Positions 46,660 through 48,939 of a stretch of 64,000 bases of DNA are shown here, piece after piece. The stretch covers positions 124,001-188,000 of the forward strand of contig CAIFEV010000004.1 in NCBI GenBank assembly GCA_903789615.1, in the 5' to 3' direction. The notes below the pieces were generated by a model. The model saw nothing but the letters and a program-made list of their open reading frames with translations. It ran no database searches and was not told the origin of the DNA. This stretch comes from an uncultured Lachnospiraceae bacterium (GTDB lineage Bacteria > Bacillota > Clostridia > Lachnospirales > Lachnospiraceae). Each line of letters opens with the position of its first letter. Positions within the stretch are counted from its first letter, which is position 1. The position numbers were made by a program, and so were the translations under genes.

Positions 46660-46693
46660 TTCTCATTAAGTACTTAAAAAAGTACAATGAGAA
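46660..46693. repeat. Inverted repeat between the deacetylase-like gene and pflB
   Basis: TTCTCATT...GTAC and GTAC...AATGAGAA form a 12-bp stem with a 2-base bulge and an 8-base A-rich loop. On the minus strand it follows the deacetylase-like stop codon by 35 bases; TTTTT comes only about ten bases after the stem, so it is a weak terminator or a protein-binding site. Confidence 0.5.
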
Positions 46694-46727
46694 CCGCCTG
46701 AAGAAGTCATATTCCGGTCATGGTGAA

Positions 46728-47714
46728 TTAATACCGTTCGTCACTGCCGAATACCGCGAATTTGAATCCCTGGTCGTGCGCATAGCTGATATAGTCTGCA
46801 AGCGCGCCGGAAACTGCATCGGACCGCACGCCGAGGCGCATGATCTCTCCCGGATGGATCTGTTCTTCCATCGTCTGAAGGGCCTCGGAAGCAGAAGCCT
46901 GCGTGTCGGTATAGGAGAAACTCCAGAAAACACTGCGAAATCCCATCTTCTGCGCGATCATCAAAGACTGGTCACTGAACTTTCCGTTCGGGAAGCGGAA
47001 ATACTGCATCTCATAGTTATATTTCTGATAGACATCATCCTCCAGCGGCATGATATCCTTCACCTGTTCTTCCGGAGAAAGGGACGGCTCGCCTTCCGTC
47101 GGGTAGCTCACTGATCCGTTTCCAAGAGTATGGCCGTCCTCAAGAATTTCCTGAACCAGCTGCGGCTGTTCATTTACAAAATCCTGCGTCACAAAAAAGG
47201 TCGCCTTCACGCCGGCTTCCTTTAATGTCGAGAGGATAGCGGAGACATTAGCCTCAGGCCCGGTACAGTCAAAGGTCAGATAGACAATATTCTGTGCCGT
47301 ATCACCGAGCCAGGATGCGTTCCGGCTTGTCCCCCAGTTCGTCATGTAGTACCGGTATCCGTTCGGCACGTTGCTGGAGTCTCTGTCATCCAGCCTGGCT
47401 CCTGTGTCATAGCTTGTGCTATCCGCAGCGAGTATATCGTCTGTGATTTCAATCGAAGAGATCTGCCGTGCGGATGCGGCCGCAGTCGTCTCCGATGCCG
47501 GCGTTGTCGTCTGTGCTGCCTGACCTGAGGTGCCGGAAGAACCGGATGATACTGACTTCGGTGATGATCCGGCGAGAAGAGCGTTGGCGGAAGCCGCTGC
47601 CGCAGCCGGATCCGGAACGGCTCTGACCGTGCATCCCGCCGTGAGCACCGCGCCAAGGCAAAGAGCTCCTGCTGCCATAAGCCGCCTCATTCCACGTAAA
47701 TTTTTCAATTTCAC
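46728..47714 (-). CDS. Lipoprotein with degenerate PdaA-like deacetylase domain (probable pseudoenzyme)
   Basis: A 328-residue paralogue of its upstream neighbour. The N-terminus MKLKNLRGMRRLMAAGALCL leads to a lipobox LTAGC, then a Ser/Thr/Ala-rich linker and a NodB-type domain. Motif 1 reads TFDCTGPEAN instead of TFDxGYD. The metal-binding motif GNHTISHP of the paralogues is GNGSVSYP here, so both histidines are lost. FRFPNGKFS remains, but the motif-5 LLHAVSD histidine is replaced (IMRLGVRSD). The fold seems preserved while zinc binding and catalysis should be lost. It starts 15 bases after the active paralogue ends, so the two are co-transcribed. Confidence 0.85.
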   Translation of the reverse strand: MKLKNLRGMRRLMAAGALCLGAVLTAGCTVRAVPDPAAAAASANALLAGSSPKSVSSGSSGTSGQAAQTTTPASETTAAASARQISSIEITDDILAADSTSYDTGARLDDRDSSNVPNGYRYYMTNWGTSRNASWLGDTAQNIVYLTFDCTGPEANVSAILSTLKEAGVKATFFVTQDFVNEQPQLVQEILEDGHTLGNGSVSYPTEGEPSLSPEEQVKDIMPLEDDVYQKYNYEMQYFRFPNGKFSDQSLMIAQKMGFRSVFWSFSYTDTQASASEALQTMEEQIHPGEIMRLGVRSDAVSGALADYISYAHDQGFKFAVFGSDERY

Positions 47715-47729
47715 CCTTCCTCAAAAAAG

Positions 47730-48767
47730 TTAATACTGGTTGTCATTTCCAAATGCCGCAAATGTGTATCCCTGCTGCCTCGCAGCGTCGATCAGACTCC
47801 CGAGAACCGCGGTATTCGTGTCAGACACTGCGTGAAGAAGATATACAGCTCCGGGATGCAGCTGGCTCACCATTTCATTCAGCGCCTCTGTCTGATCCGG
47901 CTGGCTGGAGGTATCCCAGTCCTTATAGGAAAAGCTCCAGAACACGCATGTAAATCCCATCGCGTTCAGAAGTGCAAGACTCTGGTCGGAAAATGTCCCC
48001 TCCGGATACCGGAAATACCGCATCTCGTAGCCTGTCTCGCTGTACACCTGCTCCTCGAGCGGCAGAATGTCGCTTACCTGTTCCTCAAGGGACAGAGACG
48101 GTTCACCGGCAGAAGGATGACTGATCGTGTGATTGCCGACCGTATGGCCGTCACGGATCATGCGCTTGAGCGTATCCGGTTCACTGTCCACCAGCGCCTG
48201 CGTCACAAAGAATGTCGCCTTCACATTTTTCTCAGCCAGCGTGTTCAGGATCTTCTCCGCGTTGCCCTCATCATATCCAACATCAAAAGTGAGATAGATT
48301 GTCTTTTCACTCGTGTCCCCGAGCCACACGGCATTGTACTGCGATCCCCAGCGGTTCTGATAGTACTTGTACCCGTTTGGGACATTGTTCTCATCCCGGT
48401 CGGTTGTATTGGCACCGGTGCCGACAGATGTATTGTCAAGGGCCCGGATCGCATCGGTGATCTCCGGTTCATGAATCTGCCGTCCGCCGCTCTGAGCGGC
48501 AGCTGTCTGGGCTTCCGTTTCCGTACTGCCGGAAACAGATGTCGTCTGCGCTCCGGCAGCTGCATCCGTCTTTGCTGCCGCAGTCGTTGTGGTCTGCGTT
48601 TTTACGGCCGTGCCGCCCTGAGGCGCCTCATAGCTGATGCTGTTGGCATTCTGCGCGGCCTGTTCCCAGTCCGGCGTGAATTTCACTCCGCAGCCTGCAA
48701 GGCTGCCGGCGCCCAGTACTGCCGCCAGAATAAGTCCTGCGGATTTCTTTAGGATTCCTTTTTTCAT
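47730..48767 (-). CDS. Lipoprotein PdaA-like polysaccharide deacetylase (active-site intact)
   Basis: A 345-residue protein. A lipoprotein signal (MKKGILKKSAGLILAAVLGA, lipobox SLAGC) and a Thr/Ala/Gln-rich linker (about 45-100) precede a NodB-fold domain. The motifs are complete: TFDVGYD, GNHTISHPSAGEPS, FRYPEGTFS and LLHAVSDTNTAVLG. The shared sequence with the protein at 20.5 kb is extensive, including DRDENNVPNGYKYY and EEQVSDILPLEEQVY. It probably deacetylates peptidoglycan sugars at the outer membrane face. The N-terminal anchor differs from the 20.5 kb paralogue (lipid versus membrane helix). Confidence 0.88.
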   Translation of the reverse strand: MKKGILKKSAGLILAAVLGAGSLAGCGVKFTPDWEQAAQNANSISYEAPQGGTAVKTQTTTTAAAKTDAAAGAQTTSVSGSTETEAQTAAAQSGGRQIHEPEITDAIRALDNTSVGTGANTTDRDENNVPNGYKYYQNRWGSQYNAVWLGDTSEKTIYLTFDVGYDEGNAEKILNTLAEKNVKATFFVTQALVDSEPDTLKRMIRDGHTVGNHTISHPSAGEPSLSLEEQVSDILPLEEQVYSETGYEMRYFRYPEGTFSDQSLALLNAMGFTCVFWSFSYKDWDTSSQPDQTEALNEMVSQLHPGAVYLLHAVSDTNTAVLGSLIDAARQQGYTFAAFGNDNQY

Positions 48768-48875
48768 GTCGGTTTCGTTCCCTTACATTTTCGTTTCATA
48801 GCATACGAACTTATTTTAACACGTTTGCCATCAGGATAACAGGTGCACAAGAGCGGATGCACAGCCGCCTTCACT

Positions 48876-48905
48876 AAAAAAAGGCCGCTCTTCTTCAGAG
48901 CAGCC
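48876..48905 (-). terminator. Terminator after the zinc-ribbon membrane protein gene
   Basis: On the minus strand GGCTGCTCT pairs with AGAGCGGCC (one G-U) around a short loop, followed by seven Ts. It lies 35 bases beyond the 48940 stop. Confidence 0.85.
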
Positions 48906-48939
48906 CAGCCCAGCGGGTCATTCATTTCTGTTTCCGGTC

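Follow-up and report, generated by a model that had tools for sequence, protein, structure and literature searches.

A gene in a 64,000-nucleotide stretch of DNA from an uncultured Lachnospiraceae bacterium (the window) appears to encode a retained pseudoenzyme rather than a decaying copy. The product, P0001, is predicted to be a catalytically dead PdaA-like (CE4/NodB) lipoprotein, and its retention is supported by the presence of the same substitutions in two congeners and by purifying selection resembling that on its active twin. Since the dead copy is under roughly as much constraint as the working one, it probably has a job of its own, for example in holding a wall sugar chain or in guiding partner enzymes.

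Results

A predicted inactive PdaA-like lipoprotein beside an intact twin

The window lies on contig 4 of a 2.45 Mb genome that is 99.57% complete, and it carries two neighboring open reading frames on the minus strand, both of which, as a first-pass annotation of the sequence had described, are present without a frameshift. The downstream gene, P0001 (46728..47708), specifies a predicted inactive protein of 326 aa from a TTG start, with a NodB domain spanning approximately residues 126-319. The upstream gene, P0002 (47730..48767), encodes an intact PdaA-like CE4/NodB lipoprotein of 345 aa with an SLAGC lipobox (by eye). In agreement with the shared fold originally proposed for the two lipoproteins, both exceed the gathering score of 23.1 for the CE4/NodB profile PF01522 (P0001, 95.4 bits, 3.3e-27; P0002, 116.9 bits, 7.1e-34), and an alignment of 331 columns gives 46% identity between them (E 7e-100). 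The best NCBIfam model for each is the PdaA equivalog TIGR02884, a delta-lactam-biosynthetic de-N-acetylase model, at 139.5 bits for P0001 and 226 bits for P0002 against a cut-off of 298, and the nearest solved structures by sequence are for both B. subtilis PdaA (1W17, 1NY1) and B. anthracis 2J13. Two AlphaFold2 models, built on 7-row alignments, have mean pLDDT values of 55.1 and 56.0; this low confidence allows the fold of P0001 to be placed by Foldseek, which returned B. subtilis PdaA and B. anthracis 2J13 as top matches, and leaves the residue geometry of the pocket unreadable.

The dead gene had been assigned to 46728-47714, and the open reading frame is real, but its GTG at 47714 is the less probable start. 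That codon abuts a Shine-Dalgarno-like GAGGAAGG (47715-47722, minus strand) in the gap ahead of P0001, an in-frame TTG, at 47708, lies at a more suitable distance from this site, and an ATG occupies the place of the TTG in both relatives that carry the locus (UBA4285 and hRUG884); TTG 47708 is the probable start. The gap between P0002 and P0001 is 20-21 nt across genomes (21 nt in the window), and contains a Shine-Dalgarno-like site in the relatives too. As the first reading had it, P0001 also possesses a lipobox, LTAGC, and a linker, which is long and Ser/Thr/Ala-rich; the orthologs in the two relatives have IAAGC and TAAGC, and in all three the lipobox, read by eye, follows a hydrophobic stretch.

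The tandem pair is real, but the window holds three paralogues rather than two. The third, P0003 (20475..21518, minus strand), is intact and has an N-terminal hydrophobic anchor with no lipobox by eye; TIGR02884 is again its best NCBIfam model, at 222 bits and thus below 298. It lies between genes that, judged by their sequences, are presumably pyrH- and ilvC-like, in the company of frr-, uppS-, cdsA-, dxr- and rseP-like genes.

Upstream of the P0002-P0001 operon, an element at 48812..48829 on the minus strand (GGCAAACGTGTTAAAATA / GGCAAACGTGTTARAATA) is kept in three species with one A/G difference and likely corresponds to a promoter region. A terminator-like hairpin (48882..48906, minus strand) lies between the gene pair and the upstream gene, and hairpins with T-runs occur by eye at the corresponding place in both relatives. 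We considered and rejected a regulon sharing this promoter footprint, as the genome holds a single exact copy of the element and three copies with three mismatches, versus 1 in the control. Between P0001 and a pflB-like gene, at approximately 46660-46695, inspection by eye revealed an inverted repeat, TTCTCATT..AATGAGAA, centered on GTACTT/AAGTAC, which could be a terminator or an operator.

P0001 lacks the zinc and motif-5 histidines and keeps other motif residues

The motifs of P0002 read TFDVGYDEGN / GNHTISHP / FRYPEG / YKDW / YLLHAVS, and those read directly in P0001 are TFDCTGPEAN, GNGSVSYP and FRFPNG, as had been reported, and IMRLGVRSD. At the six positions that characterize active CE4 enzymes (D, H, H, R, D, H), P0002 and P0003 are intact (D-H-H-R-D-H), whereas P0001 reads D-G-Y-R-D-G. 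The two histidines of the zinc site are replaced (H198G, H202Y), as is that of motif 5 (H293G). P0001 has also lost L291, the G-Y pair in motif 1 and the Trp of motif 4, and four residues are deleted shortly after the position of this Trp. The earlier statement that exactly the zinc-binding and catalytic residues had disappeared nevertheless goes too far: the three histidines are gone, but the motif-1 Asp (D147), the motif-3 Arg (R238) and the motif-4 Asp (D268) are kept.

Nineteen alignment columns are invariant in 75 intact domains. Five of them are changed in P0001 (G149, H198, H202, L291 and H293), and most of the invariant scaffold columns are kept along with the three residues above. The changes affect 5 of 10 catalytic-motif columns and 0 of 9 others (Fisher p 0.03), a comparison that is partly circular, since 6 of the 19 columns are invariant by the very rule that defines an intact domain and the motif flags were our own assignments; when those six columns are set aside, the counts become 2 of 4 and 0 of 9 (p 0.08). 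Comparison of the dead trio (P0001 and its two orthologs) with seven intact relatives identified 35 substitutions and 3 deleted columns that are fixed in the trio, including L291R and V295R. The Cys that follows D147 was examined as a possible new nucleophile and rejected; because the intact P0003 carries TFDC too, this residue does not count as a loss in P0001.

The altered gene is conserved in three species

A search of 10 other genomes from the same genus, several of them incomplete, located the locus in two, Lachnospira sp. UBA4285 (G005) and the uncultured Lachnospiraceae hRUG884 (G007). Both have motif substitutions and a gene order identical to those of the window, although the dead gene of hRUG884 is broken by a contig end and spread over two contigs. 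Comparison of homologues in close relatives had been set beforehand as a test of the pseudoenzyme proposal, and neither of the two carriers retains the histidines. No P0001 ortholog was found in the remaining eight of the ten genomes, several of which are incomplete; one of these, G010, has a single intact copy, and seven gave no match to P0001 or its family at the thresholds used. The common order, with gene names presumed from sequence, runs yfcE-like gene, 133-aa gene, active copy, dead copy, pflB-like gene. Outside the genus, among the matches listed from 397 family genomes, the closest match to P0001 is about 42% identical, no nearer than to intact copies.

Nei-Gojobori estimates of dN/dS for the dead domain in the three species pairs are 0.036, 0.052 and 0.055. 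The corresponding domain values are 0.044, 0.049 and 0.040 for the active twin and 0.031, 0.029 and 0.032 for the membrane-anchored paralogue, with two flanking genes providing a yardstick of 0.051-0.106; all these ratios are rough, as domain dS (0.8-1.5) is near saturation. By sequence, P0001 thus presents both marks of a pseudoenzyme, loss of residues and conservation of that loss under purifying selection in three species. The retained pseudoenzyme that the first-pass annotation had suggested is thereby supported, the same substitutions being present in both congeners that hold the locus and dN/dS resembling that of the active twin.

The three copies arose within the genus

For phylogenetic analysis, 91 NodB domains were classified by the six positions, with later additions, and the final tree comprised 94 domains with the motif columns removed. 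L014, a domain of <150 aa at a contig end, was left out of both this tree and an earlier one, and L022_534, a very long row, was left out of the second; L149, an amidase ORF matched falsely, and the five intact domains L180-L184 likewise stayed out of the second tree, in which L177 is a long row. The dead, lipoprotein and membrane trios form one group (98/87), and the single copy of G010 lies next outside (100/92), which places the triplication within the genus; the branching order among the three trios is unsettled (97/51). The stem branch leading to the dead trio measures 0.68 changes per column, and its tips measure 0.046-0.064. A viral origin was rejected on the strength of two scans of viral contigs, in which the family alignments yielded no relative.

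Dead NodB domains recur across the family

In the final tree, 19 of the 94 NodB domains of the bacterial family, P0001 and its two orthologs included, depart from D-H-H-R-D-H. Counts of dead copies are lower bounds: in most genomes no more than 5 candidates were scored, the counts cover the matches listed, and the 397 genomes were drawn from a larger family. On the final tree the dead/intact label needs at least six changes, each of them forced by well-supported branches, and the 5-95% bootstrap range is likewise six; an earlier tree with 90 domains, whose bootstrap had not settled, gave six as well. The plain reading is that these changes are losses rather than gains, the count alone being blind to direction. 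At least one motif-2 histidine is missing from 14 of the 19 dead domains. In the other five, both zinc histidines are present and it is the motif-1 Asp that is missing, together with the Arg in two cases, which makes their inactivity less sure.

The 19 domains are distributed over 15 genomes, every one of which also holds an intact copy, a co-occurrence that is partly ascertained because it was chiefly by resemblance to the intact copy that the genomes came to light. Elsewhere in the family, an active and a dead copy directly adjoin each other in one genome, G402 (L053). In the genus of this genome, several dead paralogues per genome are seen next to an intact copy (L053, L175 and L177 in G402; L152 and L176 in G100), some of them on long branches.

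Amidase domains accompany intact and dead NodB domains

Pfam profiles place an Amidase_3 domain, of the CwlD type, N-terminal to NodB in 10 open reading frames. The NodB domain is intact in seven (L034, L050, L051, L056, L068, L104, L110) and dead in three (L063:634-2355, L116:2369-4042, L121:3150-4964), in which one or both zinc histidines are lost; a profile made from the three dead fusions found the same ten in the loci examined. In three more loci an amidase ORF lies beside a NodB ORF, dead in L120 and intact in L049 and L057. Dead domains were not commoner in fusions, accounting for 3 of 10 fused versus 16 of 84 unfused domains (Fisher p 0.42), with five later-added domains taken as unfused from ORF length. 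PdaA is described in PMC10116595 as acting only on strands that CwlD has stripped of peptide, and as closing the lactam as well. Together with this requirement, the fusions suggest the same two-step chemistry in the family, and in the seven intact fusions the whole two-step lactam pathway may sit in one chain. By eye, the GHGG, SxHR and E motifs are preserved in the amidase domains of L063, L116 and L121.

In the host genome, the strongest CwlD-type match is L142:7871-8605 (the same as L086:1339-2070), a 244 aa product encoded on contig 3 and so unlinked to P0001. Its best-matching model is the CwlD equivalog TIGR02883, at 107.2 bits against a cut-off of 221.55. It directly follows a gene that is presumably ftsZ-like and precedes one that is presumably lepA-like. 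In both G005 and G007 a counterpart adjoins that ftsZ-like gene, and G010, which is without a dead copy, has only weaker Amidase_3 matches.

The host is probably not a spore former

SpoIVA had no match in any of seven genomes, among them the host (G000), G005, which is 83% complete, G007 and G010 (the B. subtilis positive control matched), and Spo0A_C, found in 4 of the 12 genomes of its own search, gave no match in the same four. Judged by these two markers, the host is probably not a spore former, a departure from the setting of PdaA as a spore cortex enzyme. SpoIVA is present in 14 of 18 and 18 of 26 other genomes that match the PdaA-like family, and in 32 of 51 overall, which indicates that the family resides largely in spore formers and that it was retained and expanded in the host lineage in spite of the lack of these genes. 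We considered and rejected the idea that dead copies mark the loss of sporulation: SpoIVA is absent from 9 of 15 dead-copy genomes versus 10 of 36 in which no dead copy was seen among the part of their NodB genes that was read (Fisher p 0.055, kinship ignored), and before the dead copies of G100 were counted the figures stood at 8 of 14 versus 11 of 37 (p 0.106).

Discussion

CE4 pseudoenzymes as such are already established, through BA3943, BA0150, 2VYO and BA0330/BA0331. We take BA3943 to belong to the YlxY sporulation family and BA0150 to be PdaB-like. With PdaA itself (TIGR02884; 1W17, 1NY1; 2J13), P0002 and P0003 share all five motifs; unlike it, P0001 is without the three histidines, P0001 and P0002 score below the equivalog cut-off, and the host has no SpoIVA or Spo0A match. 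BA3943 (7BKF, 6HM9, 6HPA) is called a CE4 family pseudoenzyme in its PDB titles, and resembles P0001 in having a NodB fold with an altered catalytic motif 1; it differs in that motif 1 is where it departs, the relevant part of PMC6115787 not naming it among the motif-2 exceptions. BA0150 (4M1B) is regarded in PMC10967932, which also counts 2VYO as a CE4 pseudoenzyme, as lacking catalytic activity and as a possible descendant of a MurNAc deacetylase; in PMC6115787 it is given as having no metal and as membrane-anchored, and not as a lipoprotein. BA0330 and BA0331 of B. anthracis are, as described in PMC4505593, CE4-type lipoproteins that bind peptidoglycan and have no deacetylase activity, but both inactive proteins keep Asp-His-His (zinc is seen in BA0330) and have an extra Fn3 domain. 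In C. difficile, a lipoprotein, GerS, is presented as the partner that CwlD needs for peptide removal in the muramic-lactam pathway (PMC8496864, PMC6021603); GerS is described as specific to Peptostreptococcaceae (PMC6021603), and its likeness to P0001 is one of functional analogy only. CspC and CspA of the same species are likewise described as dead paralogues that have been kept, CspC as a regulator and CspA fused to the active CspB (PMC6021603), but belong to an unrelated protease family.

Homology, residue loss, conserved neighbor order, three-species conservation and selection are matters of observation; from them we infer, with somewhat less than even confidence, that P0001 is a glycan-binding, non-catalytic partner in vegetative MurNAc processing. 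A PdaA-like MurNAc deacetylase was triplicated inside the genus, and in one copy the metal and acid histidines disappeared during a burst of change that gave way to strict purifying selection. As a membrane-anchored lipoprotein, P0001 would still bind the peptidoglycan glycan strand in the old substrate groove, with peptide-stripped MurNAc as its most likely ligand, and, while the vegetative wall is being processed, would hold the strand for, or dock with, P0002 and/or the CwlD-like amidase. The first-pass annotation had proposed a sugar-binding or regulatory partner of the active neighbor; a partner role gains likelihood from the amidase fusions and adjacency seen in relatives, which may point to the amidase in place of the deacetylase or in addition to it. 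This amidase link comes from other genera.

Two other functions deserve weight. It is possible, if rather unlikely, that P0001 is a stand-alone structural wall lipoprotein that binds peptidoglycan and tethers wall to membrane independently of P0002. Its lipobox and long Ser/Thr/Ala-rich linker would suit such a role, as would the precedent of BA0330/BA0331, for which it has been proposed and which without deacetylase activity are reported to affect cell shape or salt tolerance (PMC4505593); those proteins, however, have a different domain layout and a preserved zinc site, and a solitary function fits poorly with a gene order that is kept with the active twin in three species and leaves the amidase fusions of dead domains in relatives unexplained. 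Those fusions speak instead for P0001 as an activator of the CwlD-like amidase, which would do the work of GerS with a dead PdaA fold. Besides the three fusions, this proposal draws on one dead gene elsewhere in the family that immediately follows an amidase ORF, on the reported binding and activation of CwlD by GerS (PMC8496864), and on the CwlD-like amidase beside the ftsZ-like gene in the same three genomes, with weaker Amidase_3 matches in G010, which has no dead copy. Yet 7 of the 10 fusions have an intact NodB domain, so that fusion need not mean regulation, and in the host genome the amidase is unlinked to P0001; the activator role is unlikely.

The remaining alternatives concern whether P0001 retains or has gained chemistry. 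P0001 might have acquired an activity that needs no metal, or a ligand site involving the new conserved arginines R291 and R295, which lie in and just after motif 5; the changes fixed in the dead trio (35 substitutions, 3 deleted columns) and its long stem branch followed by constraint would be compatible with this. We consider this quite improbable, as no catalytic constellation was recognized, the motif-1 Cys is shared with an intact paralogue and the models are too poor to place the arginines. Persistence of deacetylase activity through another metal site, to which the kept D147, R238 and D268 might lend themselves, is scarcely credible when none of the three species has kept any of the three histidines that belong to CE4 motifs 2 and 5. 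Recent inactivation on the way to loss is nearly as implausible: the lack of an ortholog in eight of the ten same-genus genomes would fit it, though seven of these gave no family match at all, but three species, at a dS above 1, share exactly the same losses in an open frame with a domain dN/dS of about 0.05, which led us to reject recent decay.

The favored partner reading admits a broader version, which we regard as speculative and on balance doubtful. In this lineage, which is probably not spore-forming, the sporulation pair of CwlD, a stem-peptide amidase, and PdaA, a MurNAc deacetylase and lactam former, may have been turned into a vegetative, division-linked wall-editing module with a dead PdaA as dedicated adaptor, and the same solution, in which a dead domain serves beside a live copy and is sometimes part of the amidase, may have evolved at least six times in the family. 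We found no match in the open-licence literature for a catalytically inactive NodB paralogue, nor, among the titles listed, one on CwlD-PdaA fusions with dead deacetylase domains. Whereas CE4 pseudoenzymes are described singly in the papers considered, here the losses are repeated in one family, beside an intact copy in all 15 genomes, with three of the dead domains sitting inside an amidase fusion; these features make the function of dead deacetylases testable by comparison. They also raise the question of whether muramic-delta-lactam, or another peptide-free MurN form, occurs in the vegetative wall of non-spore-forming gut bacteria.

Two further variants emerged from the family survey. L124:1455-4262 encodes a protein of 936 aa with fibronectin-type repeats and a C-terminal NodB domain that is without the motif-1 Asp and motif-3 Arg. 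L006, from G010, has TSDEGYE as motif 1 in place of TFDxGYx and is otherwise intact.
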